Source of the DNA: a virus
Virus record (IMG/VR): IMGVR_UViG_3300030118_002165
Location: 1-25,946 of that record
Direction: 5' to 3' (one strand)
Length of the DNA stretch: 25,946 bases
Program-made: the position numbers and the translations under genes
Notes under the pieces: generated by a model
Told to the model about the DNA's origin: nothing
Databases searched by the model: none
The model's input: only the letters and a program-made list of their open reading frames with translations
Part shown: in pieces, positions 1 to 16,260 of the stretch
How positions within the stretch are numbered: position 1 is the stretch's first letter
How the letters are laid out: every line of letters begins with the position of its first letter

Positions 1-3000
1 GCTTTTGCTTCAGCTTCTTGTTCAGTATATAGTTTACCAGTTTTAGGATTTACTCTATTTAATAAAGCTTTTTTACGATTAATAAAAAATGGCGCACCCC
101 CTAAAGCAATTGCAAAGCTATCCATTATTCTAGTAATAACAAAACCTTTATCCATTAAAAAGCTAAACGCTCCTTTAATACCACCTTTTTTTGCAGCATC
201 AGCAAGTTCAGCTTCATTTACATTAATTTTTAAACCATCACGTCTATTTACTAGATAATCAGAATTCATTAATTTTAAAAACGTAGGCCACATTTCTTTG
301 CTTGCAAAAGCTTTAGCAGCCGCATACATATTATTATCACCCCAATTTATGAAATTTACCGTAGATAATGTTTGAAGTAAACCAGATCTTACATTTAAGA
401 ACATAACATTTGCAACTGAAGCATTTAACCAGTCTAACATTTCGTTAACAGCTCTAGCTCCACTACCAGTTATAACAGGTCTATTACTACCTGACTTCAT
501 TCTACGTATAGAATCTTTTAAAGCTTCTACATATTTACTTCCAAATAAAGCTTCTAACTTATTTAAATTTTCGGGAGTAAATATAAGGTCTACATTTTCA
601 TTAAACTCAGCCATTAACTCTGATCTAAACGAACCATCTAATCCGTTTAATATATCATCTTTAATTCCTCCACCTAACCAATTTTTACCTGGTTTAGGAT
701 ATTGTTCCATTTTTTGTATTAACTGTAATTCATCTGCAAAAACATTTAACTCTGCGTCTTCTTTAACAAGTTTTACTAATTCAGCAACATCTCTTTTTGA
801 CATACCAGGTATTTCCATACCTTGTTTATTCCATAAATAAACTCTTACTGCTTGTTCTTTTGTGTAAACAGTATCACCTATGTTTTTTAACAATGGATTT
901 GAAAATGGTCTTTTCCAACTTCTTTTTAATGAAGGAAACTTAGCTGTTAACGCTGCAAAGTCATTAGCAACAGATACTTTAGCTGATAACAAAGCCATTT
1001 CACCTCTATTGTAAGGACGTATTAAATTTTCTTCTATCCACTCAGCGTGTCTATTACCTTGTTCGCCTTTTCCTCTAAAAGCATATGTTAATCCAGCAAA
1101 ATCATCAGCTGATGGTGTAATAGTAAACTGTCTACCAATTCTTTTAAATATACCACCGTCTTTTTTCTTACCTTCTAATCTAGCTCTTACGTCAGAATAT
1201 TTTTTAAAAGATTCTTTACCTGTTACTTCTTCTAGTATTTTATTAAAATCTTTATCTAAGTTTCTTCTTTTACTAGACTTAGCTTGTTTGACTTTACTTT
1301 TTACATCAATAGCGTCTAATACTTCTTGAGCTGCTTTTACATTTGCAAATGAATCATCAGCAAAGAAAAAGTCATTATAACCTTCAGCGGTTTTATTTAA
1401 TAACCAATCAACTTTAGCTTGTGGAGACCCGTCTTCTAAACCAGTAATATTATCTAAAGGTATATTTAAACCAATACCATCTAAAAATGTTTTAATCGAT
1501 GTTGCAGCTATTTGAGGTCTTGCTGTAAGTACAAATATATCTTTGCTGCCAAACTTTTCTTGACGTCTTCTAGCTAATTCTGCCAAAGGTCCTTCACCTG
1601 TACCTTCAGATACTTTATCAAAATTACTAAAATCAAAAGTTGCACCATCATTTTCTAATTTAACCGCTGATCTTGCAAACTCTGCAGCTGATATTTCATC
1701 AGTTGTACCATCTTGCATAGTAACTATTACAGTTTCTTTTGTTTTTGCTAGTGTATCATCAAAATCAAAAACACTAATACCTTTTCTTTTAGGATCTATT
1801 TCAGCAGCTCTTGCTTTAGTTTTATTTGAATTAACTAAAACAGTTTTCATTTCTTCAGCTGTAATCTTGTTATCTTGAATAATAGGACCTAAATCTTTAC
1901 TGTTCTTTATAACATTATCATTTTTAGCATCTTGTACAGGCATAGAAACATTTAATCTTTTCTTAGCATCGCTTGTTGATAAAGCATCAGGATCAATAGC
2001 ATTATCTCTAATTAAATTATTTTGATAATTTAAAGCAGAGGGATTATTATTAAATCTTCGTTTAGATGATTTACTTTGAGTAATACCTGTTTTATCAGCA
2101 AGTGTTTCTTTAGTAACATTACCTTTATTATCGTAGGTCTTAATTTTTTCTAATGGAGAACGATTACCTTTACGAGTACCTGTAGTTAATCTACCCGGAC
2201 CAGCTATTGATTGTCTAACATTAGTATTTTGTAAAATTTTTTCTTTATAGCCATTGTTATTCATTGCATTATCAGTTGCAATATCTATCAATATTTGAAA
2301 GGCGTTATTTTTTAAAGCTCTAGCTGTTCTCATAGCTTCGCCATTTGTAAAACCACTAAGTATTTCGCTAGCTAACGAAGTTATAAAACCAGCAGCATTA
2401 ATTGATACGGGTGGACTATGTTCTTCTGTTGTTTGTCTACCTTCACCTTCACCAATTAAATCAGATTTTCCTATAAAAGGAATACCAGTTTTAAATATAC
2501 CATTTGTACTTTGGTAACCATGTCGTATAAGTCTAGCTGCCATTAACAAGCCCATACCGTTTTCTGTTGCTAAAACAACTTGCTGATAAGCAGCTTCAAC
2601 TGCTTCTTTATTATTTTTATCAGCTTCTTTTTTTGTTAATTTACCCGGTGGATTTATCTGTCCCTTTGTTATTTTAACACGTTTATTTAATTTTATTTTA
2701 TTATCAAGCTTTGTATTTATTTTGTTTTTAGTATTTTTTTCAGCAAGCTCTTTTAATTTTAAATAGTTTGGATCACTTTTAGTGCTCCAAAACATACCGG
2801 TTCCTGCAGCAATAAAATTAGCTTCAGGATCACCAACTTTTTTTCTCATAGATTCTAAACTAGGTATATCATATCTATGAACAGTGTATTTTTTATTACC
2901 TTTTTCAACTTTTCTTGGTTTACCTGTTTTTTTATCTATTACAACATTACGTCTCAAACCTTTAACAAAAGTAAATTTACCATTTCCTAACGCAACTTTA

Positions 3001-6000
3001 TAGTATTTTACAGTAGGATTACTTTCTTTTATACCAGAGTTTTTCCAAGCTGTTTTATCTTGACTATTAGGACCTCTTCCTCCTGATGATTTTTTACTAA
3101 TTAAGTCGCCTACTCTAAAATTTTTAGCACCAAAATTAGCTAATTGCAGAGACTCTATTAACGGTAATGTTATATAAGGATTAGCTTCGGCTTCTGCAAT
3201 AAGCTCCCCAATTATTTCTTGCGTTTGACTGTCCTCAGTTTTTAAAGCATTAGGACCAAAACCTAACATTTTTAAAGCACCTTCTACTCCTTGTACTTGA
3301 CCAGCTTCATTTAAAGCTTGATTTAAACCTTTTTTAGTTAAAAGATTATTGTCATAGTCTTTCAATATGTCGTTTTCTTCTTTTCTTCTTTCTTTTACAA
3401 CTTTTTGATCAGCCGTCTTATCTCCAAAGTTTCTTCGTCTAGAAAACTTAGCACCTGCTTTTAAAGACTGTTTATCATCGCCTTCTAATTTAGTAGCTGC
3501 TTGTTCTACAATTATATTTCTAAATGATAGATCAGCTAAACCTTTTATTGTTTGAGCTTCAGAAGCTCTATATATTTGACCATCAATATCACCTAATAAG
3601 TTTATATAATCTTTTAATGTTTTACTATTATCTTTTTTATATTTACCATCAGCGCCTTTTTTATATAAAGCTTTTAAAACATTGTTTGGTATAAAGGTAG
3701 ATTTACCTTCTACTTTACTAGGACCAGCATAAGCATCAGGTAATAGACTAAAATCTTTTTGAGCATTAGCAAATAAATGTTGTCTTAAATTACTTAAACC
3801 TTTTTTATCGCCTTGTTTTATATTCCAGCTTTTATCTGTAAACACTCTAGGATCTAATCCAAAAGCTTTACCTAATACTTCACCTAAGTTTTCACCTGCT
3901 CTAGCTTTACCATATGTTTTAGGAATACCATTTGCAGCTATATCTGCTTCAATAGCATCAGTTATTATCTTATCTGCAGCTACTTTATCTTTAGCATCTA
4001 AATTACCTAAAAAAGTATCATTATATTTTTTTAAAGATCTAGGGCTTCGCTTTTTAACAGTAGTTTTAGGCTTAATATCTTGATCTACTGTTTCATCTTT
4101 AGCTAAAGTTAGTTCGCCTCCACTAACACCAGCTATATCTTTTATAGCAGCGTCTATTTCAGGTTTTCTATTTCTTACTGTTTCAGCTAAGTATGTACTC
4201 ATCTTAGCTCCACCTTCTAAATTAAAACCAGCTAATAAACCTGTTTTTCTTGGACCATATTTACCCTGACCAGATCCTTGAAACTGACCTAATAATTGAT
4301 CAATAACAACTTCTTTAGCAGCATCCATCTCTTGCGCATTGTTGATGTTAAGAGATTTACTTATTAATGGCCAGTTTTTTTCTGTTATAGCTTGAGCAAC
4401 AGAAAACTTATCTTTAGTACTAGGTGATTCTAATGCTTGCGCTAAAATATCATTGTCTATTTCCATTAAAGCCTCTGCCGTTGGTGATATAGGTCTTCTT
4501 TTTGATTTCTTTTGTGAAGTTTTTCCAGTCTTAATATCAAGCTCAGCATCTTTAACTGCTTGTGAAAAATCTTTAAACTTTTCTTGTAATGCAAGTTCTA
4601 TATCTTGTTTGTTTTCGCCTTTTGCATTTTTAAGTTTAGCTCTTAATTCACTAGCACTGTTTTGAGTATCTAAATCTTGTATTTTTTTCTTTCTAGCTTT
4701 AAGTTCTTGTTCATTTTTAGCACGTAATACTCTATTACCAATTTCACGATTTTCTTCGATTAAATTATCTATAACACCAACTCCTTGTAAATCACTTTTA
4801 GCTTTAGAAGATTTTTTACCTGTAGTTGTTTTAGGTATTTTCGTTTTTTTGATACCTTTTCTAGCTCTTTTTCTTTGACCTCGATCTAATTTACCTTTTT
4901 CAAAACTTTTATTGTAATCTCTAATAAAATTTAAAACATCATTACCAGATTTAAAAGTAACATTTATTCCTAACGCAGATAAAGCTCTTCTAATTATATC
5001 ACCAATTTTCATCAAAGCCGTTTCATTCATTTGAATAGTACCATCTGTCAAGCCTTCACTTGTCAATGTCATAACTTCTTCAAAGAAAGTAGCTTCATCA
5101 ATTACACCGTCATTTAAATCTTTTTCATATTGTGCTAATCTATCTGTAAAATCTTTACTAACAGTAATTCCTGGATTATTTTGTAACTCTGCTAATAAAG
5201 ATTTACCCATTTGTATAACAACCTCTGGATTATTATCAAATGTTGTTTTTAATACACCATGCAATACCTCGTGTTGAGCTGTTGTTACAACTCTATCTTC
5301 CATGGCAATATCATTATTTATAATAATTTCTTTACTACCATCAGGCATTGTTACAAAAGTTCCATATTCAGTAGAGTTTTTAGTATCTATATCTCCACCT
5401 TTATCTTGTAGTTCTTTTATTTTATTATCAACTGTTGATTGATCACCTGCTGTATAACCAATACCCATTTGCTCAGCTATTGCTTGACCTCTTTCATCGC
5501 CTTTCATTATAGCTTCAGCAGTAGAATCAGTCATTGACTCAACTTTTATTTCACCTAATCTAGTATTTATTTCATCTAGTCTTTGCTTATTTTCAGTATT
5601 AAAAGCATCATCAGTTTTCTTAGCGTTTTCTTGTATAGCTTGTTTTTCTTGTAGTAAATTCATTGCTTCTACACCTTTAACACCGGTTATACCTTGACTT
5701 TTAATAGCTAAAGCAGCTGCTTGTTGACTTCTAAAATTAGCTCTAATTTCATCAGCTTTAGTAGTACTCATATCACCAGATTTTACTTGTCTTTGTAAAT
5801 CTGTTTCTAAAAATCTTTCAGTGTTAGGATCAGTAGCTAACTCTATAATACTATCAGCTTGTATATCTTGAGCTGTTTCATTATTCTTTTTATTAGCTAA
5901 TTCTGTTTTAGCATCTAATATTTCTTGTTCTGTATAGGTTTGTTTAAACGAAGAAGGAGGAAGTTGACCTTCTTTAGGTTTAATTTTATTTTTATTTTTA

Positions 6001-8159
6001 AGATATTCAACAGCTTCTTTTTCAGTAATATTTTCAGGTAATGCTTCTTCTTCTTGTTTTGGTAAAGTAGAATTTTTATCAAAATCACCTAGTGGATCTT
6101 TATTGCTAAATATACTTGATAAATTTGAAATACCTGTTTTATCTAAATTAGTTTTTATATTTTTATAAGCAATAGTGTTTCTTATTAAACTACCGCCTGC
6201 AGTAACGGTGCTCATACCACCACCCATTAAACCACCGATAATAAAAGTATCCATTAACTCACCAAACTCTGGTAAATATTTACTTCCAAACATACCTTTA
6301 CGAGATCTTTCATTAGCATCAATTACACCATCATTATTTCTATCGTCACCTTTATATATTTGATCAGCAACACTGTTTATCAATAAAGTAGCACTTTCAG
6401 ACAAACCTTCTGCTCCAAAGTCTTTCATTATTGAAACACCCCATTGAGTTAATGTTTTATTTATAGCTTGCTTAGGTAATCCTTTACCAGACAAACTTCT
6501 AAACATTTTACCTCCAATTTTTTTAGTAACAAGTTCTAATAAACCTTCAGAAGCACCAATTACATTAGCGTGAAACATTCTATTCCAGTCTAATTCTCTA
6601 CCTTCTAATTCGCTTTCTTTATTTGCTTTAGCAGCTTCACCTATAACAATAGAAGCAATACCAACATAAGGTATCATTGATTGAGCAACAGATGGTAAAG
6701 AACCAAGAGCGTCAGCAGTTAATCTTGATCCTCCAGTTACTAAAGCAGCTAATGCATTTTTAGTATCACCTGCTTTTACAAAATCATAAGCATTACCAAA
6801 TTCATCAGTTGCGTATCCATCAAATTGAGCTAATGAATTATTTAATACATCTATTTTTTCATTTAAGTCTTCATAAGACTTCTCCCCTGCTGCTACAATA
6901 TCTTCTCTAGTTAGTGCATTTAAATTACCTAAACCTGTAGCCATACCAATTGTAGAGTCAAAATATTTTTGTATATATGGATTCTCAAGCACTGCTAATC
7001 CTGACTTAATTACAGGTGGTATGTTAAAATTATCATTAATAGTTTGACCTATTAGTTTTTTATTATCTGCCAAATATTTTGGTACTACACTCATACCAGC
7101 AGCTATATTTAATATTCCAGACTCTATTTTATCTCCTACTTCTTCTTCCCAATCATATATTGATTCTCCAGCCGCTAAATTATCAGGATCTGTTAATGCA
7201 TAATCTGTAACAACTTGATCTAAAACATCGTTAAGTTTTATACCAGTTAAACTATCTTCATCGTCAATACCTAATTCTTCTGCATCAATAACTCCAAAAA
7301 AATCTAACACAGCCGCTACTGGCTCCGCTACAACATTAGTAAAAGTGTCAACTTTTGCTCTAAGTATACCTTCAATGAGTTCTCCACCTCCCATAGCTAC
7401 TCCTTCAGTAATAGTATCTTGACTAAATGAATCTAAAAATTCATTACCGTATTCTAATTTTTTTTCTTTAGCTTTTTTTCTATCTTCTAATTGTTTTCTT
7501 TTTAATTCTTTAACGTTTTGAACATTTTGAAAATATTCTTGTCTTTGTTCGTCTCCAAATTCAGAAAGACCAAATAAATTAGCTATAGAAGCTTCAGCTA
7601 CCTGTGCTTTAGCTAAAGCATCTCCTTCTTTATTTCCATGATTACTAGCGTTAACCCAGTCAGTATCACCAACTTTTCTAGTATAAAATAATGGTTGAGA
7701 AGGATTATCTGGGTTTGCTTCCATTTTATATTCCCAGCCACTACCATCTGTAATTATTTCACCTAATTTTTGTCCTTTAGGTGTTGTGTATTCTCCTCGT
7801 GCAGTTGAAGCGTCTACGTTTTCAAGCTGATCTTGTATCTCTTTAGCTTTTTCTTTTTGCATGAATGAATTGTAGCTAGCACTATTCATATCATAAGACG
7901 GCTTTTCTACTTTTTCTTTAGTAGCATCAGCACCTGGACTTTCTTTTACCTCTTCTGTTTCATCTACTTCAACTTCTTTTTCTTTAGGTTCTTCTTTTTT
8001 AGGAGGTTCACCAGCAGGTCCAGCTGCACCAATAGGTAAATCTGATTTGTCTTCAACTTCTTTGGGTTGTTCTTCCTTTTTAGGTTGAGGATTTTCTTGT
8101 CTCCACTTAGCTAATCTTTCTTTTTTCTGATCATCAGTTAGCCCTTGTGGCAAAGACAT
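1..8159 (-). CDS. Giant multi-module internal virion (polyvalent-type) protein, partial
   Basis: One minus-strand frame stays open from the ATG at 8159 through the left edge, giving at least 2719 residues with no stop; I checked the frame at about ten points. Order seen: a Lys/Glu-rich, probably disordered N-terminus (about 10-75); hydrophobic and glycine-rich stretches near 485-507 and 633-655 that could touch membrane; a perfect EF-hand loop at 606-617; a zincin motif HEVLH at 963-967 with Glu1027-1028 as a possible third ligand; basic S-K/R-R-R motifs at about 1219, 1573, 2032 and 2296; and a HAD-type module at about 2125-2285 (FDFDDT, VLTAR, FFADDS). It follows two ejection-type genes, the place of T7 gp16. 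Large phage polyvalent proteins combine such modules; delivery into the host is inferred. An in-frame ATG at 8180, five bases after the previous stop, is an alternative start; 8159 has AGAAGGA upstream. The 3' end is outside the window. Confidence 0.85.
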   Translation of the reverse strand, partial: MSLPQGLTDDQKKERLAKWRQENPQPKKEEQPKEVEDKSDLPIGAAGPAGEPPKKEEPKEKEVEVDETEEVKESPGADATKEKVEKPSYDMNSASYNSFMQKEKAKEIQDQLENVDASTARGEYTTPKGQKLGEIITDGSGWEYKMEANPDNPSQPLFYTRKVGDTDWVNASNHGNKEGDALAKAQVAEASIANLFGLSEFGDEQRQEYFQNVQNVKELKRKQLEDRKKAKEKKLEYGNEFLDSFSQDTITEGVAMGGGELIEGILRAKVDTFTNVVAEPVAAVLDFFGVIDAEELGIDDEDSLTGIKLNDVLDQVVTDYALTDPDNLAAGESIYDWEEEVGDKIESGILNIAAGMSVVPKYLADNKKLIGQTINDNFNIPPVIKSGLAVLENPYIQKYFDSTIGMATGLGNLNALTREDIVAAGEKSYEDLNEKIDVLNNSLAQFDGYATDEFGNAYDFVKAGDTKNALAALVTGGSRLTADALGSLPSVAQSMIPYVGIASIVIGEAAKANKESELEGRELDWNRMFHANVIGASEGLLELVTKKIGGKMFRSLSGKGLPKQAINKTLTQWGVSIMKDFGAEGLSESATLLINSVADQIYKGDDRNNDGVIDANERSRKGMFGSKYLPEFGELMDTFIIGGLMGGGMSTVTAGGSLIRNTIAYKNIKTNLDKTGISNLSSIFSNKDPLGDFDKNSTLPKQEEEALPENITEKEAVEYLKNKNKIKPKEGQLPPSSFKQTYTEQEILDAKTELANKKNNETAQDIQADSIIELATDPNTERFLETDLQRQVKSGDMSTTKADEIRANFRSQQAAALAIKSQGITGVKGVEAMNLLQEKQAIQENAKKTDDAFNTENKQRLDEINTRLGEIKVESMTDSTAEAIMKGDERGQAIAEQMGIGYTAGDQSTVDNKIKELQDKGGDIDTKNSTEYGTFVTMPDGSKEIIINNDIAMEDRVVTTAQHEVLHGVLKTTFDNNPEVVIQMGKSLLAELQNNPGITVSKDFTDRLAQYEKDLNDGVIDEATFFEEVMTLTSEGLTDGTIQMNETALMKIGDIIRRALSALGINVTFKSGNDVLNFIRDYNKSFEKGKLDRGQRKRARKGIKKTKIPKTTTGKKSSKAKSDLQGVGVIDNLIEENREIGNRVLRAKNEQELKARKKKIQDLDTQNSASELRAKLKNAKGENKQDIELALQEKFKDFSQAVKDAELDIKTGKTSQKKSKRRPISPTAEALMEIDNDILAQALESPSTKDKFSVAQAITEKNWPLISKSLNINNAQEMDAAKEVVIDQLLGQFQGSGQGKYGPRKTGLLAGFNLEGGAKMSTYLAETVRNRKPEIDAAIKDIAGVSGGELTLAKDETVDQDIKPKTTVKKRSPRSLKKYNDTFLGNLDAKDKVAADKIITDAIEADIAANGIPKTYGKARAGENLGEVLGKAFGLDPRVFTDKSWNIKQGDKKGLSNLRQHLFANAQKDFSLLPDAYAGPSKVEGKSTFIPNNVLKALYKKGADGKYKKDNSKTLKDYINLLGDIDGQIYRASEAQTIKGLADLSFRNIIVEQAATKLEGDDKQSLKAGAKFSRRRNFGDKTADQKVVKERRKEENDILKDYDNNLLTKKGLNQALNEAGQVQGVEGALKMLGFGPNALKTEDSQTQEIIGELIAEAEANPYITLPLIESLQLANFGAKNFRVGDLISKKSSGGRGPNSQDKTAWKNSGIKESNPTVKYYKVALGNGKFTFVKGLRRNVVIDKKTGKPRKVEKGNKKYTVHRYDIPSLESMRKKVGDPEANFIAAGTGMFWSTKSDPNYLKLKELAEKNTKNKINTKLDNKIKLNKRVKITKGQINPPGKLTKKEADKNNKEAVEAAYQQVVLATENGMGLLMAARLIRHGYQSTNGIFKTGIPFIGKSDLIGEGEGRQTTEEHSPPVSINAAGFITSLASEILSGFTNGEAMRTARALKNNAFQILIDIATDNAMNNNGYKEKILQNTNVRQSIAGPGRLTTGTRKGNRSPLEKIKTYDNKGNVTKETLADKTGITQSKSSKRRFNNNPSALNYQNNLIRDNAIDPDALSTSDAKKRLNVSMPVQDAKNDNVIKNSKDLGPIIQDNKITAEEMKTVLVNSNKTKARAAEIDPKRKGISVFDFDDTLAKTKETVIVTMQDGTTDEISAAEFARSAVKLENDGATFDFSNFDKVSEGTGEGPLAELARRRQEKFGSKDIFVLTARPQIAATSIKTFLDGIGLNIPLDNITGLEDGSPQAKVDWLLNKTAEGYNDFFFADDSFANVKAAQEVLDAIDVKSKVKQAKSSKRRNLDKDFNKILEEVTGKESFKKYSDVRARLEGKKKDGGIFKRIGRQFTITPSADDFAGLTYAFRGKGEQGNRHAEWIEENLIRPYNRGEMALLSAKVSVANDFAALTAKFPSLKRSWKRPFSNPLLKNIGDTVYTKEQAVRVYLWNKQGMEIPGMSKRDVAELVKLVKEDAELNVFADELQLIQKMEQYPKPGKNWLGGGIKDDILNGLDGSFRSELMAEFNENVDLIFTPENLNKLEALFGSKYVEALKDSIRRMKSGSNRPVITGSGARAVNEMLDWLNASVANVMFLNVRSGLLQTLSTVNFINWGDNNMYAAAKAFASKEMWPTFLKLMNSDYLVNRRDGLKINVNEAELADAAKKGGIKGAFSFLMDKGFVITRIMDSFAIALGGAPFFINRKKALLNRVNPKTGKLYTEQEAEAK

Positions 8160-8185
8160 TATAAATTCCTTCTCTGTCATTTAAT

Positions 8186-9289
8186 TTAATTTGCTGGGTT
8201 TCTTTTTAAAAACTCGTCTGCCTGTTTTTCTTTACCTTCACTTAAGTCAAACACTGCTGCGTCTGCTGTTACTGTAGGTATTTGATTAGTTGTAAATTGT
8301 TTTAAATAATTATGGAAAAAATAATTTCTATACTTTAACATAAATATTTCTTTGTTTCTTTGAGAAAGTGGTAAAACCTCATTGTAGTTCCAAGATAAAC
8401 TACCTGCATTAGCATTTTGAACCATTTGATCATCTTCTTCTGTTGTGCTCATACGACCTATAAATACGTTCCAAGCTGCAACAGCTTCTTGTTCATTTGC
8501 TAATAAACCTGATACTTCAGCATTTATGAAAGGAGTTACTTTTCTTTCAATTTTATCAAGATCATATTTTAATATGTTTCTACCTTTACCACCACCTATA
8601 TCTATAATTTCATAATCAAAAGTACCATCTGAATTTTTTAAAACAAATTCTTCAGATATTTTAGCTCTTGGAGTAAGTTGCCCAGTTTCAGGGTTTATAG
8701 AACCAGCACCCATAACGCCAACTTCACCTAATAACCTAAGCATGTCTTTGTTAATATCAGGTGTTTCAGCTACAATATTTGTACCTGATTCTAATAAAGC
8801 TTCTAATGAAGCACTGTTTATTATTAAAGGTTCTTCAAACATTGGACCATCAAAAAATATTTGTTGTGATCCATCAGGTAATAATTGTAAAACAACTTCA
8901 TAACCACTGTTTATATCAAAACCGGGTTTACCATTCATAATAGCATTAGCTAACATGTATCTATAATCTTGATTTACATCATAATAATTATCATCAGTAA
9001 CAGTTAGTTGTGATGTTAAATTAGCTAAAAAATCTAAACTCATTTGCGGAGCGTTCATTAAGTTTTTTAATGCTTCTGTTTCTTGTTTACAACCTGGCTC
9101 CATACAATCATTGTTTTGTATGTTAGTTTTTAATTTAGCATACACTCTACCAGTATCTTTATAAGCATTATCTAATAAAGCAAAGTTATAATTTGAAGAG
9201 CCGCTTATATATCTTTCATCGTAACCTAATATATTACTTTGATTAAGCTGCTTTATTTGTAAATTAATTCTTATATTTTTATCTTCCAT
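8186..9289 (-). CDS. Hypothetical virion protein, 367 aa, between two ejection-type genes
   Basis: The product is not one I can assign to a family. It is soluble-looking, mixed alpha/beta, acidic, without signal peptide or membrane segment. Two cysteines lie close together near residues 62-67 (CMEPGC). The central part (about 130-160) has alternating hydrophobic residues that suggest beta strands, and the C-terminal third (about 260-340) is probably helical. It starts 12 bases after the 222-residue gene ends and stops 26 bases before the giant gene starts, so it is almost certainly co-transcribed with both. The position corresponds to that of T7 gp15, an internal core/ejection protein, but I see no sequence motif that proves this. 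The ATG is preceded by an A-rich leader. Role as an internal virion or tail protein is inferred from position only. Confidence 0.8.
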   Translation of the reverse strand: MEDKNIRINLQIKQLNQSNILGYDERYISGSSNYNFALLDNAYKDTGRVYAKLKTNIQNNDCMEPGCKQETEALKNLMNAPQMSLDFLANLTSQLTVTDDNYYDVNQDYRYMLANAIMNGKPGFDINSGYEVVLQLLPDGSQQIFFDGPMFEEPLIINSASLEALLESGTNIVAETPDINKDMLRLLGEVGVMGAGSINPETGQLTPRAKISEEFVLKNSDGTFDYEIIDIGGGKGRNILKYDLDKIERKVTPFINAEVSGLLANEQEAVAAWNVFIGRMSTTEEDDQMVQNANAGSLSWNYNEVLPLSQRNKEIFMLKYRNYFFHNYLKQFTTNQIPTVTADAAVFDLSEGKEKQADEFLKRNPAN

Positions 9290-9301: not shown

Positions 9302-9970
9302 TTATCCTCCAAATGCTGAACCTAAAGTATCTCCTACAGCTCCTATTGCTCCCATCATCATGTTTGTTGAATCAGCTCTAGCTTGAGCAGCTGCACCACG
9401 TAAAGCACCTATTTGACTAGATAGTCTATTAAGTTGTTGCATCTCTCTTTGTTCTGTAGCATTGAATACAAATTGTTTACCAGATACTTCAGCTGATTGT
9501 ATACGCTGAGCTTCTGCCATTCTTTGTTGTTGTAATGTTTGTTCACCAGCTAATCTTTGTTTTTCATTAGCAACTTCTTGTCGCTCAATATCAGCAGCAA
9601 TACCTTTTTTAGACTGTAAAGCAGCTTGAGCTAAAGCAGTTGCACCACCAGCGCCACCACCTGTTGCTCTAATAGTATCTAATGTATTAGCTAATGCAAT
9701 ATCAGTTTGTTCCATCTGCATTTCAGTAGCTTGAGTTGCTACGCTTAACTGATTAAATGGATTACTAAGCATGCTGCTTAAGTTTACAACATCTTCGTAT
9801 GGATTTATGATCTCTTGTCTATTAGCTTCTAAATCGTTTAATTTAGCTTCTAATGCACGTGCTTGCGCTTCTCTACGTCTAGCTTCACGCTTAGCTGCGC
9901 TTGCTCCAAAAATACCTCCTAGAACTTTAACAGCTCCGCCTACTATTAATCCTGCTGCTGGTCCTGGCAT
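9302..9970 (-). CDS. Ala/Gln-rich internal virion (ejection) protein, T7 gp14-like
   Basis: This small protein (222 aa) begins with a Gly/Ala/Val-rich hydrophobic segment (about residues 3-26), followed by a strongly charged Arg/Glu/Ala coiled-coil helix (27-55). The middle carries a glycine cluster (about 104-110), then a long Gln/Glu/Ala helix (115-200), and the C-terminus is again hydrophobic and glycine-rich. That plan (amphipathic ends, helical body, no enzyme motif) is typical of phage ejection proteins such as T7 gp14 that insert into the host envelope during DNA entry. From memory, marine podoviruses carry close relatives in the same place, with a segment resembling NPFNQLSVATQATEMQ. 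It lies 18 bases after the 499-residue tail gene and 12 before the 367-residue gene. Functional assignment is by composition and position; homology was not tested. Confidence 0.78.
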   Translation of the reverse strand: MPGPAAGLIVGGAVKVLGGIFGASAAKREARRREAQARALEAKLNDLEANRQEIINPYEDVVNLSSMLSNPFNQLSVATQATEMQMEQTDIALANTLDTIRATGGGAGGATALAQAALQSKKGIAADIERQEVANEKQRLAGEQTLQQQRMAEAQRIQSAEVSGKQFVFNATEQREMQQLNRLSSQIGALRGAAAQARADSTNMMMGAIGAVGDTLGSAFGG

Positions 9971-9988: not shown

Positions 9989-11488
9989 TTAATATCCATT
10001 ATTTGAATCGAATTTTGATCCTACAGAGAATAAGGTTTTTATTCCTCCAGGATCTGTTGTTGTATCTGTAACATAAGTTGCTTCTGTATAATAACCTTTT
10101 ATACCACTAATAACATTACCAAATAAAACCTCACCGCTTGCTGCTGAAGAATTATTAACAATGTTGGCTGTATAACAATTTTCTTTTCTATCAAACCCTG
10201 CATGAAATCTTGGAACTGGTGGATCATAAGTACCAAACCCATTAGGCGGTGCTAGATTATAATTTGCTCTTACTATAACGTTATCATTAGCATCATAAGC
10301 ATATTCCCCATCATAATAACTTGGTACAATTAAAATAGAATCAGTTGTAAAATTATATGTTGTAGTATTTCCATTATTATCTTTACCTGTTTGATCTGAA
10401 ATTAAAGAGCTAACGCTCCAACCATTACTACCTTCATATGTTAAAGTACTAAATGTTTTAGATCTTAAAGGTTCAGGATTAAATATCACAGTAATACTAC
10501 TTGGAAAATCTTGTCCATAAAATTGATTTCTAGGAACTAAACTACTATAATGTTTATATAAACCATCTGAAGTAGCAGTATATAAATTATTATTTATACT
10601 AAATATTTGATCAGGTCTATAATCAAAGAAACTAGTCCAACCTTGAACTCCTTCATCAAAACTCAAAGTATTATAACTTACAGATCTTTGACCTCTATCA
10701 TCTTGTTGTGTTGATATAATATATTGATCATTATAAATATCCCAACCTCCAACTACTTTTCCATTAGTAGCTCCTAAATTTAAACTGTTTAGTTGGTCTC
10801 TAAAATAATCTCTCATACCTAATTGAGATATTTCAACTATGTTAGAACCTTGTAATTTTAATATTACATTGTTATTTTTATCTGAAAAATATTTATTATA
10901 TCCATATACCGCAAAACTTTCTGGGTTTTGAGATATACCGTATTTTCCTGGTATAGGTTGAATTACACCTATAACTAAATTTGTTGATGTTACAGTTCCT
11001 ACACCTTCTGCAGAAAATATAGCATCTTTATCTATTAATGCTTGACTAGTCTTATATTCTTGAAATATATATAAATTAGTATCTTCAGCATACAACTTTT
11101 GTATTGATCCATTAGAAGGATCTGTAGCTCTTGTTATTTCATCAGCAGTAGAAAAAACATTTGTATTGTTTATTCCAGTTCTAGAGTTAAATATACCTGA
11201 ATAAATTAAAGCATTAAATCTAATGTATCCAGCAGGTTCTTCTTCAACTAAATAAGCTTTTGCGCCATAGTCGGTACTAGTATTGTTAAAACCACCTCTA
11301 ATTCTTGATTCTTCAATAATCCAGTTTTCGTCAGTTTCAGTATTAGCAGTTTCAGGATAACCACCGGTTAAATCACTAGGTACTCCAAAAGATCCATTCC
11401 ATATAGGATTTTCTGTTAATCCAGTATTAGCTCTTATCTTTTTAAGAATAAAGGTGTTAAAGTATTTTACTTCTATCGCTGCACTCAT
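9989..11488 (-). CDS. Tail nozzle/muzzle-like beta-propeller structural protein
   Basis: The product (499 aa) is rich in Asn, Thr, Ser, Gly and Tyr with short alternating hydrophobic stretches, as in beta-propeller or beta-sandwich tail proteins. A segment at about residues 272-312 (SFDEGVQGWTSFFDYRP, then NNNLYTATSDGLYKHYS) resembles a conserved stretch of crAss-like and flavophage tail nozzle proteins, recalled from memory. It has no signal peptide, transmembrane helix or catalytic motif. It starts 17 bases after the stop of the 1584-residue gene, whose N-terminus looks like the opening of the same kind of protein. The two may therefore be parts of one ancestral muzzle protein, or two subunits of the same tail piece. 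It would act at the distal tail of the virion during DNA ejection. Subunit role is inferred. Confidence 0.75.
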   Translation of the reverse strand: MSAAIEVKYFNTFILKKIRANTGLTENPIWNGSFGVPSDLTGGYPETANTETDENWIIEESRIRGGFNNTSTDYGAKAYLVEEEPAGYIRFNALIYSGIFNSRTGINNTNVFSTADEITRATDPSNGSIQKLYAEDTNLYIFQEYKTSQALIDKDAIFSAEGVGTVTSTNLVIGVIQPIPGKYGISQNPESFAVYGYNKYFSDKNNNVILKLQGSNIVEISQLGMRDYFRDQLNSLNLGATNGKVVGGWDIYNDQYIISTQQDDRGQRSVSYNTLSFDEGVQGWTSFFDYRPDQIFSINNNLYTATSDGLYKHYSSLVPRNQFYGQDFPSSITVIFNPEPLRSKTFSTLTYEGSNGWSVSSLISDQTGKDNNGNTTTYNFTTDSILIVPSYYDGEYAYDANDNVIVRANYNLAPPNGFGTYDPPVPRFHAGFDRKENCYTANIVNNSSAASGEVLFGNVISGIKGYYTEATYVTDTTTDPGGIKTLFSVGSKFDSNNGY

Positions 11489-11505
11489 AATTATTATTAC
11501 TTGTT

Positions 11506-14500
11506 TTAAATAATTTCTACATTAAAGTTTGAAATATCTATTGGTGATAAATCTTCCCATACTTCACTACAAGGTCCTGGTCCGCATTCATCACAAGTTA
11601 AAGCATCATTACAACCACCAGAATTTGCAGCAGCAAGTACTGTTGCAAAATCTACGCTACTATATAAAAATGTATTACTATTTGGAGCACCACAATTATA
11701 ACCTACACCTGGCGGGCCGAGTACATCTATATCATAAGCGTTTGTTCTATCTATAGTAATAACATCAGGATCACTAGCGTAGCCTTTTAATTGGTTAAAA
11801 GTACCACCCATTGGACCCGTAAATAAATAATATCCATTTTGCCCAGGCACAGTAGAAGCATCTACTCTAATTTTTATATGAGGAATTGTACAATAGTCGT
11901 CTGGACCTGTTCCTCCAGAGGAGTTTTGATCTTGACGAATTATAGGTATTATTTCTTCATTTTGTATAGCGCCAACTTGATCTAATGAAACACTATAATC
12001 TGCTTCATCATCTAATCCAGCATCAGTAGCTCTAACTCTAATAATATAATTAGCTATAGGTGGTGCAGGACTAGCAAATTTTAAATCAGTAGATCTTATA
12101 TTAGCTCCTGTGATAGGATCAACTTCTATTGTTGCTGTTGGTGGATCTAGAACAAAGAAATCATCAAGATCAGCACCAGCATCTGCTAAAGAAGTACCAT
12201 CTTGAATTATATCATATATTTCTATAGTTAAATCATCAGCTGATAAATTACCATTATTTGCTCCATTTATCGCTGTGATACTCTGTATTGATCCTGTAAT
12301 ACCTCTGTTAGTTGTTATTGTTGTATCTCCTGGTGTTATAGTAGGACTCACATTTTGTAGCGGAATAGTTACTTGTTGCTGTACTGTAGTTGGTTCCGCT
12401 CCAACAGCATTACTTAATGTAGTAACTTCAAATGTAAGAACAAATATACGGGCTTGAGCATCATTTCCATAAAATACAGCTGTGTAAAAATTAGGTGTAG
12501 TTATTACATTCCAACCATTTACTTGAGGACCACCATCTAATTGAAAATAATCTGTAACATCGTTTCCAGGATTGTTTCCATCTACAGCTGAAATTAATTG
12601 TACATCAATTGTAGTAAAATCTGCTGGATTTAAAGCTATTCCAAATTGATCATTTACTCTAAAATCTGAGTTAAATATATCAGCACCAAGAGTTAATCCT
12701 TCATCAAAACCACTTGCGTTTAAAGGTCCAACACCGCTACCACCTGATGTTTCATTTAAAATAAAATCATTTAAATCTTGTATTAAACCAGTTGTAGTAG
12801 TTTCCCAAAATATATCTAAATTAGATATAACAGGTTCTGTTTCATAAATAGATAAATATTGTATACCTGGAACTGTTAAAGGAAAAGCACCTGCAATATC
12901 TTGAGCAGGGACAAAATATAAAACATCTCCTTGATCAACTGTGACTTGCTGTGCTGTGGCTCCATCTATTTTAACCAAAGTTAAATCATCATCAGCAGGC
13001 GCGGCATTGAAAGTATAAGTATCAATATAAGTATTTTCAGGTATACCAACACCTTGAACTAGCATGCCTGGAACTGGAGTACCAGAGACACTAGAAATTT
13101 TTACTGGATCTCCTCCTGGTCCTACATTAGACTGAGCTAGAGGAACAACAGCTGAAGCTGGAAAATAATCGGTTTCTGCTACTTGTCCTATTTCATTTTG
13201 AGTAGTTATTCTAGCAATAAGAGGATTAGAATCAAATTGATAAAATTGAGGGAAAAAATTAGGTTGAGGCGGACTCAATGGATCATACTCAAATAAATTA
13301 AACATAGTAGATATAGTAGAAACTGTATCTGCTATTCTACCAGGATAATACTGCTCGTTAGCCAATCCAATATCATCTGATTCAGTTCTTGTTGTACCTG
13401 AAATTAAATCATAACTTATCGATGCGTCAGTGTTTTGTACTCTACCAAAAAGTCTTACTGAACTTCTATATTGTTTTTGATCAGGACCAACCTCTGTTAA
13501 ATCTCTAGGAACTTTATTTATATTATCATTTATTAATACAACATGAGAAGAACTATCTAGTTCTAATGTTTGATCTTCTGGGTATGAAGCCATAATTCCT
13601 GGCAAATAAACATTGTAATATTCTTGCTCTGTTTGTTTTACTACAATTTTATAAGAATACCAACCTAGTGGATTATAATCAGCACTTGTTTTATCACCAT
13701 TATATATACCCGGCCAAGCAAAATTAGAATTTGCTGTTGGACCAATAGGATTATTAAATAATACTTTTAAAGAGTCACCTGGAAACTGAAGCTTGTTATC
13801 ACCTGGAGCAATATATGCCGAATAAATAGTATCACCTATAAACGTAGAGCCTTCAGCTTGTTTTGCTTCTTTATTGCTTGAAAGAATAACTGATGATTGT
13901 CTACCAAATCTATCTGACAACACTATACCAACTTGATAATTTCTATTTTGTTTTAATGAATGATTAGGATATTCTACTTTACTTGTTCTTTGATTAACTG
14001 TTCCTGGATCGGTAAATGTTAATAATTGATTATCAAGAAAAACACTAGGATTAGTTAAACCTGAAGGAACTCTATCAAAAGTAACTTCTGTATTAGGACT
14101 AGCAGGTACTCCAACAGCTTGTACTTTAGCTAAAAATGTTCCATTTGAATCTAAAATATCATCACCTACTTCAATATCTGTTACACCAGGGGCTGGTGTC
14201 CAGTTTTTAACAGTTAATACTAAGCTACCAGCTGTTAAAGTTTGATTACCATCTACCTGAGCTGTACCTTCTCTTATTTCAAATGGAGATTTATTACCTA
14301 CTGTTACATTGTAATCTATAAATTCTGGTGGAGTATGTTTATTTAAATAATTTCCATATATTACTCTATTACCAGAAACTTCTTGTGAAAAAGCTTTAAC
14401 TGGTATTTTATCAAAAACTCTAGTTAAATCGCCTTCTGGTAAAGTTTTTATAGGTTTTTTAGAAACATAATTATAAATATATGTATATTGATCACCTATG

Positions 14501-16260
14501 TATATGTATTGATTTATAGGTATATCTACGGCGCTACTAGCTGTTATAGTAGCTGTTGCTTCATCATATGATAAAACAGTTACTTGTGTAGTAATTGATT
14601 TACCTGTTATAATATCTCCTACATTTATATTTCCTACAAGAGTAGCTGCTGATATAGTTATTTGATCACTTGCAACAACTGCTGGGCTTACTTGAGCTCT
14701 TGCGCTTGAATTTTGTATTTCTTCTATTGGTATAGTATCTATAACTCTTACTGCTAAGCCGTCTGATTCTTTATAGAGTATATCTATTTCTTTTAATTTT
14801 AACTCATTTTGTAAATTAAATTTATTAAAAGGTAAAGGTAGTATTAATTTAATATCTTCTACTTTATTTTCCATAAATTCAACTATTGTACTTCTATAAG
14901 CATCAGCTTGATCATCTCTTACAAGACTAGGAAAACCACCAACAGTATATTGAAAATAACCATCTTGTTTTGGAATAAAAGCAGGTTGTGTAAAAGGTGC
15001 AAATATAGAATATTCATTATCGTCATATCTAAACCTATAACTAAACCTTACAAACTTATCATCTAAAAATGCTGGATCACCACTAAAATTACCATTATAA
15101 TATGGATTAGGTGTTCCAAATACTAAAGTTGTATTATCTGGTAATGGACTAGCTGAAGCTGGAGGAGATGATATAGGCGGATTAGCATTTACTTCGTTAG
15201 GATCACGAGTTCCTAGAAAACCTACAACAGCACCGGCTGGTAAAGCACCACCACTTGAAACTGGATCACCGAAATTTTTATCTAATGTACATGTTGTACC
15301 AACAAAAGATACTACAGTTGTGCCTATTGGAATAGCTGTTAACCCTGTAGAAACAGCTACACCATTAACAGAATTAACTTGCATACCTGGCGTTGGTGGA
15401 AAAAGAGGTAAAAGTGTTGAGGTAAAAGTATTTGTACCAACAAGACCACCAGCAGCTTGTGTAAGCGAAGCAGCGGCTACAGATATATCTACATTAGAAC
15501 CTGTATCTCTTATTTCTCCAGTATCAAGAAGCTCATAAATATCTTGATTTTGTTTAAAAACACCACTTAAATTTTTAATTTTATTATTAGGAGCTACACC
15601 TGTATATAATCCATCGGTTTGACAAGAACCACCACCTGGTAAAAACAACTCTGTAACATTTTTCATACTAGTTTCATAATTGTCTGGATAACTATTACTA
15701 GACAATGTACTTTCTTGCCACAACTGAAAAGGTTGATAAGGACTATATTTTGCTACAGATATTTGATCTTCTGTTTGATAATATCTAGGATCAGCTACAG
15801 CTCTTTCAATATTTATTTTTCTAGGTTGATTACGATTATCAGTCCAAAATAACAAATTATCTATGATATTAACACCAAATATAGGATATAATTGTGAAAA
15901 ATTTAAAAATTTACTTGTTCCTGTAAATAATAAATCTATTGATGTATTGTTATTTACATTATATTGAACTATTCTATTTGTTGCAGTAGGATCATAAGGT
16001 TCGCCTGCATTATCTGTTAAAAATAAATAAGCAAAACTTTTAGCTTCATCTGTTATCCAACCAATACATTTTACACCACCAGTCCAAGTCAATGAAGTAA
16101 TTTCATTACCTAAAACGTTTTCTAACTCTCCAACATCTGGTCCTTCAGATTTACTAACTTGAACGTTTCTTGCATCTCTATATTCTCCGTTTGGTACTAA
16201 ACGAGCATCTAAGTCTTTATTTAATTTACCTTTAACAAAGGTGTTAACAACTTTTGCCAT
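11506..16260 (-). CDS. Large tail protein with nozzle-like N-terminus and inserted beta-sandwich modules
   Basis: The product has 1584 residues. Residues 11-53 (including LNKDLDARLVPNGEYRDA and SEGPDVG) match, from memory, the conserved opening of tail nozzle/tubular proteins in marine podoviruses and crAss-like phages. At about 262-345, 523-590, 666-750 and 1033-1123 there are four divergent segments of similar pattern, with a PGM-V or VGD-I turn followed by Thr/Val-rich strands, looking like repeated Ig-like inserts. About 1305-1430 resembles a cadherin/Ig-like domain (Asp-rich, with SPTITPGD and IRVRATDAG). The C-terminus is cysteine-rich, with five Cys between 1523 and 1564. No chaperone or peptidase motif is visible. 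It starts six bases after the preceding gene and is followed by the 499-residue tail gene. Likely role: distal tail scaffold with surface-exposed adhesive modules that may contact host glycans; the binding role is inferred. Confidence 0.82.
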   Translation of the reverse strand: MAKVVNTFVKGKLNKDLDARLVPNGEYRDARNVQVSKSEGPDVGELENVLGNEITSLTWTGGVKCIGWITDEAKSFAYLFLTDNAGEPYDPTATNRIVQYNVNNNTSIDLLFTGTSKFLNFSQLYPIFGVNIIDNLLFWTDNRNQPRKINIERAVADPRYYQTEDQISVAKYSPYQPFQLWQESTLSSNSYPDNYETSMKNVTELFLPGGGSCQTDGLYTGVAPNNKIKNLSGVFKQNQDIYELLDTGEIRDTGSNVDISVAAASLTQAAGGLVGTNTFTSTLLPLFPPTPGMQVNSVNGVAVSTGLTAIPIGTTVVSFVGTTCTLDKNFGDPVSSGGALPAGAVVGFLGTRDPNEVNANPPISSPPASASPLPDNTTLVFGTPNPYYNGNFSGDPAFLDDKFVRFSYRFRYDDNEYSIFAPFTQPAFIPKQDGYFQYTVGGFPSLVRDDQADAYRSTIVEFMENKVEDIKLILPLPFNKFNLQNELKLKEIDILYKESDGLAVRVIDTIPIEEIQNSSARAQVSPAVVASDQITISAATLVGNINVGDIITGKSITTQVTVLSYDEATATITASSAVDIPINQYIYIGDQYTYIYNYVSKKPIKTLPEGDLTRVFDKIPVKAFSQEVSGNRVIYGNYLNKHTPPEFIDYNVTVGNKSPFEIREGTAQVDGNQTLTAGSLVLTVKNWTPAPGVTDIEVGDDILDSNGTFLAKVQAVGVPASPNTEVTFDRVPSGLTNPSVFLDNQLLTFTDPGTVNQRTSKVEYPNHSLKQNRNYQVGIVLSDRFGRQSSVILSSNKEAKQAEGSTFIGDTIYSAYIAPGDNKLQFPGDSLKVLFNNPIGPTANSNFAWPGIYNGDKTSADYNPLGWYSYKIVVKQTEQEYYNVYLPGIMASYPEDQTLELDSSSHVVLINDNINKVPRDLTEVGPDQKQYRSSVRLFGRVQNTDASISYDLISGTTRTESDDIGLANEQYYPGRIADTVSTISTMFNLFEYDPLSPPQPNFFPQFYQFDSNPLIARITTQNEIGQVAETDYFPASAVVPLAQSNVGPGGDPVKISSVSGTPVPGMLVQGVGIPENTYIDTYTFNAAPADDDLTLVKIDGATAQQVTVDQGDVLYFVPAQDIAGAFPLTVPGIQYLSIYETEPVISNLDIFWETTTTGLIQDLNDFILNETSGGSGVGPLNASGFDEGLTLGADIFNSDFRVNDQFGIALNPADFTTIDVQLISAVDGNNPGNDVTDYFQLDGGPQVNGWNVITTPNFYTAVFYGNDAQARIFVLTFEVTTLSNAVGAEPTTVQQQVTIPLQNVSPTITPGDTTITTNRGITGSIQSITAINGANNGNLSADDLTIEIYDIIQDGTSLADAGADLDDFFVLDPPTATIEVDPITGANIRSTDLKFASPAPPIANYIIRVRATDAGLDDEADYSVSLDQVGAIQNEEIIPIIRQDQNSSGGTGPDDYCTIPHIKIRVDASTVPGQNGYYLFTGPMGGTFNQLKGYASDPDVITIDRTNAYDIDVLGPPGVGYNCGAPNSNTFLYSSVDFATVLAAANSGGCNDALTCDECGPGPCSEVWEDLSPIDISNFNVEII

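Follow-up and report, generated by a model that had tools for sequence, protein, structure and literature searches.

In phage T7, the genes for the ejection proteins lie in the order gp14-gp15-gp16, and the giant gp16 comes last. The polyvalent proteins of phages and conjugative elements form a described class, for which self-processing by a zincin was proposed in 2017 by Iyer et al. (PMC5512222); the portion of that paper drawn on here cites P1 DdrB, which is processed, and the N4 virion RNA polymerase (vRNAP), which is packaged unprocessed. In the crassvirus phi-crAss001, according to the sections of PMC10172136 drawn on here, the cargo proteins gp45 to gp50 are large, mostly helical, and present in the virion, and the three largest are associated with RNA polymerase (RNAP). 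In SPN3US, it is established that a separate protease processes injected proteins; in both SPN3US and phiKZ, the enzyme that cuts the head ejection proteins is a distinct prohead protease acting at A-X-E or related sites (PMC5694885).

We analyzed a 25,946-nucleotide stretch of viral DNA (IMG/VR record IMGVR_UViG_3300030118_002165; the window), which carries a giant gene at its left edge. Like T7 gp14-gp15-gp16, the giant and its neighbors form a three-gene cassette of increasing size after the tail genes, with the giant at the end; unlike gp16, the giant had no Pfam or PHROGs match to the gp16 families, and no lytic transglycosylase domain was found in it. Like the crassvirus cargo genes (in the same sections of PMC10172136), it lies directly after a homologous muzzle gene, but where the three largest of those cargo proteins are RNAP associated, the giant has zincin and HAD modules instead. 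With the polyvalent class, as the same portion of PMC5512222 describes it, the giant shares a very long chain, unrelated enzymatic modules, a recurring zincin, and a neighborhood of packaging genes (portal/terminase), whereas the Pfam domains MPTase-PolyVal and LPD38 had no match in the window; the giant of phage Panino reached 1.8 × 10−5 against LPD38, which is below the cut-off. The giant appears to work like a polyvalent protein, and we claim no membership at the level of domains. The giants phi18:3 gp123, phi40:1 gp101, and elemo gp18 share its slot and a homologous N-module, and elemo gp18 shares the zincin as well, but they carry other C-terminal payloads, and the HAD module, the C-terminal core (C-core), and a clear repeated junction were not found in them. 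The parallel with SPN3US and phiKZ consists of injected proteins, a phage protease, and a defined motif; the window counterpart is proposed from sequence, and it differs in that the putative protease is part of the chain it would cut and the motif is not constant from phage to phage.

The original prediction had presented the giant as the best candidate for an undescribed system. That view holds in part: polyvalent proteins and the crAss-like cargo slot are already described, and the lineage-specific repeated junction peptide and its tie to the zincin, which are absent from the consulted portions of PMC5512222 and PMC10172136, appear to be new.

Genomic setting and probable virion packaging

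The giant ORF occupies positions 1 to 8180 on the minus strand (2,726 codons from the ATG at 8180 to the contig edge, with about 3,140 aa expected in full); the frame is open across positions 3 to 8180, and the gene is unfinished at the left edge. The ATG at 8159 is the second in frame, and a relative on IMG/VR contig 3300037961_002157 (L002) begins with the same MTEKEFI. The giant gene of L002 is complete (3,143 aa) and reaches about 420 residues beyond the end of the window. The two giants are 76% identical over an alignment that spans the entire window stretch, and their overall dN/dS was 0.41, with lower values for the HAD module (0.08) and the C-terminal part (0.045). These values indicate that the frame is under selection and is no sequencing accident. 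The giant frame is a true coding sequence, and the single unbroken frame to the left edge that had been predicted is borne out, with its start at 8180 and a full-length relative.

Upstream of the giant, on the same strand, lie terminase, portal, MCP-like, ring-like, and muzzle-like genes. The muzzle gene (9989 to 16260) is two genes in the window, an N-terminal part at 11506 to 16260 (minus strand, phrog_14478) and a crassvirus-type C-terminal part at 9989 to 11488 (minus strand, crAss_MUZ_C, E = 2 × 10−12). In phi40:1 and elemo, the muzzle is encoded by one fused gene; MW202828 and phi18:3 also have it split, at a point other than that in the window. Next on the minus strand come a 222-aa protein (9302 to 9970), with a Gly-rich hydrophobic N terminus and long charged stretches, and a 367-aa protein (8186 to 9289), which are the presumed first and second proteins of the ejection cassette; we take the former to resemble ejection proteins of the T7 gp14/P22 gp7 type. 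The relatives examined had this same gene order, ending in the giant.

By terminase, the nearest named phages were MW202828 (65%), the elemo Flavobacterium phages (47%), Cellulophaga phages phi13:2, phi18:3, and phi40:1, and Tenacibaculum phage Gundel; Maribacter phage Panino matched too. In MW202828, elemo, phi18:3, phi40:1, and Panino, in which the slot was resolved, the cassette likewise ends in a giant, of 1,691 to 3,859 aa. The giant gene closes a tail/ejection cassette belonging to flavobacterial-type podoviruses. The Panino giant (L003, 13229 to 18718), which has the N-module and an LPD38-like C terminus, is labeled a tRNA methyltransferase, probably wrongly. In many relatives, a signal-peptide protein of about 390 aa lies directly downstream of the giant (19729 to 20913 in L002), after which L002 encodes a secreted thioredoxin-like protein and an M15-like peptidase. 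Within the genome collection, the giant family was found on MAG contigs only, several of them in Bacteroidota bins; the hosts are probably Bacteroidota, with which these bins are consistent and of which they are no proof.

The records of phi18:3 gp123 and phi40:1 gp101, which sit in the same slot, read "annotation based on experimental MS/MS proteomics analysis." The N-module of the window giant aligned with that of these two giants (hhalign probability 95.7, E = 1 × 10−8, versus E = 0.04 for a reversed control). Because proteins of the same slot with a homologous N-module carry this annotation, we infer that the window giant is packaged, and its identity as an ejected virion protein is well supported by synteny and N-module homology. 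The earlier proposal of an ejection or injected protein at the position of T7 gp16 gains support from the same synteny and from the homology of the membrane-like module to the MS/MS-annotated giants. In a short-tailed marine phage, the giant would then be the closing protein of the ejection cassette, with its chain packed in the virion and passing through the tail on infection, and the membrane-like N-module would probably aid in crossing the envelope.

Modules of the giant protein

Pfam, PHROG, and PDB searches with the whole giant returned no significant domain. Structure prediction, which had been suggested as a check on the original prediction, gave poor AlphaFold models (mean pLDDT, 53 to 57); Foldseek searches with these models returned faint HAD matches only from the PDB and, from a viral structure library, homologues from uncultured viruses together with faint polyvalent matches. 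The unique N-terminal regions of six relatives were mostly without a match in Pfam.

The 145 complete giants among the fetched relatives had a median length of 2,922 aa (range, 912 to 3,370 aa). The C-core was present in about 110 of 114 de-duplicated relatives and the HAD module in about 109 of 114, in a set that was itself fetched by those modules, and the N-terminal modules varied far more than these two. HExxH occurred in 107 of the 145 complete giants, and the zincin was detected by profile in 92 of 115. The C-core family is very common in metagenomic viruses, with at least 586 confirmed C-core stretches in IMG/VR.

All modules are on the minus strand and are given here from the N terminus. 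The chain opens with a P/E/K-rich leader (7890 to 8159), which on direct reading of the sequence is probably disordered. A hydrophobic and amphipathic module (Nmod, 6129 to 6902) is common to the Panino, phi40:1, phi18:3, and elemo giants and holds, within an insertion, a single EF-hand-like loop, DRNNDGVIDANE (6309 to 6344). Three modules had been predicted, and the zincin and HAD modules stand, with catalytic residues invariant across relatives; the EF-hand does not. It is a lone canonical 12-residue loop in a 19-residue insertion restricted to the lineage of the window giant, it was present in 2 of the 145 complete giants (both from the L002 contig), and its Pfam match fell short of significance (E = 0.089). 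The EF-hand was therefore rejected as a conserved module, being an unpaired loop in a lineage-specific insertion.

The zincin-like metallopeptidase module (4851 to 5588) carries HEVLH at 5259 to 5273 and a candidate third ligand, Glu, at 5076 to 5078. Across 45 diverse homologues (mean column identity, 23%), the only invariant columns were H106, E107, H110, and E171 in the numbering of the window module; because HExxH served to pick most of the 45 sequences, the invariance is independent only for the downstream Glu. At the sequence level, these columns match the gluzincin catalytic set of HExxH plus a downstream Glu. The AlphaFold model of the module shows strands followed by the HExxH helix and, further on, a helix with the Glu (local pLDDT, about 80), and a profile of the module found elemo gp18 (E = 8.7 × 10−11). 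The module had no match in the PDB or to Pfam MPTase-PolyVal.

M2 (3441 to 4511) is helical and is swapped as a unit between giants; M3 (2073 to 3440) is a mosaic. The HAD phosphatase module (1263 to 2066) has DFDDT at 1752 to 1769, and in 41 sequences, HAD motifs I to IV (DFDDT, the threonine of LTAR, a lysine, and a DD pair) were invariant or nearly so. Its closest profile is phrog_415, "polynucleotide kinase," to which 11 of 15 members were similar (best E = 3.7 × 10−6). The module may perhaps trim 3′-phosphates on nucleic acid; since phrog_415 also matched 10 of 14 control genomes, this role is a suggestion. The same motifs bear on whether the giant is a crAss-like virion RNAP, with FDFDDT as the acidic motif of the polymerase. 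The slot equals that of the crassvirus RNAP cargo genes (in the sections of PMC10172136 cited above), and the acidic motif is superficially alike, but LTARP, Lys, and DD, the next HAD motifs, come after FDFDDT in order, and with the phrog_415 similarity in addition, we give this reading hardly any credence. The last module is the C-core, of which the first 424 of about 755 residues lie in the window (1 to 1274) and which is under the strongest purifying selection. No relatives of known function were found for M2, M3, or the C-core. A weak match of the C-core to "head maturation protease" (E = 0.005, 3 members) was rejected because the predicted structure is nearly all helix.

A repeated peptide at the module junctions

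The modules of the window giant are parted by a short basic peptide of the KSSKRR type in four to five copies, first spotted by reading the module borders. On the minus strand, with residues counted from the ATG at 8159, these are KSSKAK, the weakest copy, after the zincin (4797 to 4814, residue 1116); KKSKRR at the start of M2 (4494 to 4511, residue 1217); KFSRRR at the end of M2 (3432 to 3449, residue 1571); KSSKRR before the HAD module (2055 to 2072, residue 2030); and KSSKRR at the HAD/C-core border (1263 to 1280, residue 2294). In an unsupervised search for repeated 7-mers, the junction family was the top-ranking one in the window giant and scored a little higher than the best repeats of six shuffled copies, and the top repeats of three relatives, L010, L013, and L014 (ESKGK, KANKALN), were clearly above their shuffles. 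In the AlphaFold models, the junction sites fall in low-confidence blocks (pLDDT, about 27 to 41).

Exact SKRR proved too narrow as a definition of the junction, as it is missing from most relatives, and a within-protein test was used instead on 80 de-duplicated giants with a recognizable HAD/C-core junction. Ranked among all windows of its own protein, this junction had a median of 0.13, versus 0.5 expected. Furthermore, a giant's own junction was a better match to the rest of that protein than 95% of the junctions of other giants in 35 of 80 cases (binomial P value = 2 × 10−24) and was the best of all in 24 of 80, compared with 0 to 7 of 80 for composition-matched linker-like peptides and 1 to 11 for fixed-offset controls. 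The junction idea arose from the window and its first relatives, which are themselves among the 80 giants, and the P values are optimistic and overstate independence because the giants share ancestry and recombine. In addition, 63 homology breakpoints between L002 and its relatives lay within 15 residues of the five sites, versus 18 for shifted sites. By sequence comparison, the junction peptide differs between phages and is uniform within each giant, and together with the breakpoint excess, this indicates that junction peptides mark units of exchange that are kept alike within each protein.

The coincidence of junctions with homology breakpoints would also be expected if they were recombination seams, that is, short repeated DNA promoting module exchange. 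In the window giant, however, the junction residues are spelled with different synonymous codons from copy to copy (serine, for instance, by either TCN or AGY), and the repeats are thus not kept identical as DNA. This largely refutes DNA seams, which would also leave the link to zincin type unexplained, and we regard them as very improbable.

Junctions, the zincin, and a proposed self-processing polyprotein

Next, we looked into how the junctions relate to the zincin. Of the 64 giants matched by the zincin profile, 34 had clear repeated junctions, versus 1 of the 16 that it did not match (Fisher P value = 6 × 10−4); among giants longer than 2,200 aa only, the counts were 33 of 61 versus 1 of 12 (P value = 0.004). 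The profile was the second definition of the zincin tried, and the significance of the split depends on it; with HExxH found by regular expression, the relation to junction clarity was not significant (P value = 0.14) because several zincins have variant active sites. A clear repeat was lacking in the other 30 of the 64 zincin-bearing giants and present in L133, which belongs to the zincin-less group.

We consider it somewhat probable, on the strength of these sequence comparisons, that the giant is an injected polyprotein whose own zincin recognizes and cuts phage-specific junctions. The zincin inside the chain would recognize a short peptide peculiar to the phage at the module junctions, here (K)xSKRR, and would cut there during assembly or after entry, so that M2, M3, the HAD phosphatase, and the C-core would each come free as a protein of its own. 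Self-cutting at matched sites would explain why the junctions are uniform within a protein, why they change between proteins, why they lie at module borders, and why they vary together with the zincin.

The giant might instead be an ordinary polyvalent ejection protein that is kept whole, with its modules tethered, its zincin attacking a host target or aiding packaging, and its junctions acting as flexible basic linkers. The N4 vRNAP has a zincin and is packaged unprocessed (cited in the portion of PMC5512222 used here), the junctions lie in probably disordered stretches, and about half of the zincin-bearing giants have no clear repeat, all of which fits an intact chain. Plain linkers nevertheless leave unexplained both the lineage-specific uniformity, which exceeded that of the composition-matched controls, and the zincin link, and we hold an intact chain to be rather unlikely.

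We also evaluated whether junctions and zincins resemble each other across giants in step. Corrected for C-core similarity, junction similarity and zincin similarity gave partial correlations of 0.41 (n = 37) and 0.57 (n = 21), with a P value of 0.001. Junction similarity was not correlated with the similarity of the adjoining HAD module (−0.09 and −0.06) or with that of a second C-core block, and its correlations with other N-terminal blocks were weaker than that with the zincin. These results bear on the possibility that the junctions are cut by another protease, whether one from the host or a capsid maturation protease working in trans, with the zincin as a bystander. SPN3US and phiKZ offer a precedent, in that a separate prohead protease cuts their ejection proteins at a fixed motif (PMC5694885), and L133 has repeats and no detectable zincin; but junction type goes more closely with the zincin than with the C-core, the junction motif was not found in the other 11 window ORFs checked, portal and capsid included, and no capsid protease was identified in a nonexhaustive search. 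Cutting by another protease thus seems improbable to us.

Self-processing by the resident zincin, if extended to the family, would mean that marine phages of this kind inject their early proteins as a self-processing polyprotein, in which zincin and junctions form a lock-and-key pair that changes together; we put this forward more tentatively, as a possibility a little short of even. A module moved between phages would then work only with junctions that match the resident zincin, and the polyprotein strategy, known from RNA viruses, would occur in tailed DNA phages. The junctions are concrete candidate cut sites for the 2017 proposal of zincin self-processing, for which the portion of PMC5512222 drawn on here names none. 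Moreover, the family supplies the candidate sites together with a protease candidate, natural variants in specificity (SKRR, SKG, KANKA, and KFSKS types), and hundreds of relatives, which makes the idea directly testable with short peptides and with available or freshly isolated phages.

The SKG type illustrates the co-variation. All six giants with an [LI]EE[LI]FH zincin carry SKG-type junctions, and none of the HExxH giants does (P value = 3 × 10−4); L187, a further giant with an EExxH motif, has another junction type. The six SKG-junction giants sit on two different backbones, and in two of them, L095 and L177, the C-core is nearest to that of a KFSKS-type giant, which suggests that junction type goes with the zincin rather than with the backbone. 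EExxH zincins, which are without the first His, may perhaps be inactive as proteases. EExxH replaces HExxH in the zincin modules of L041, L038, L037, L125, L095, and L177, and HExxxH forms occur in L179 and L096.
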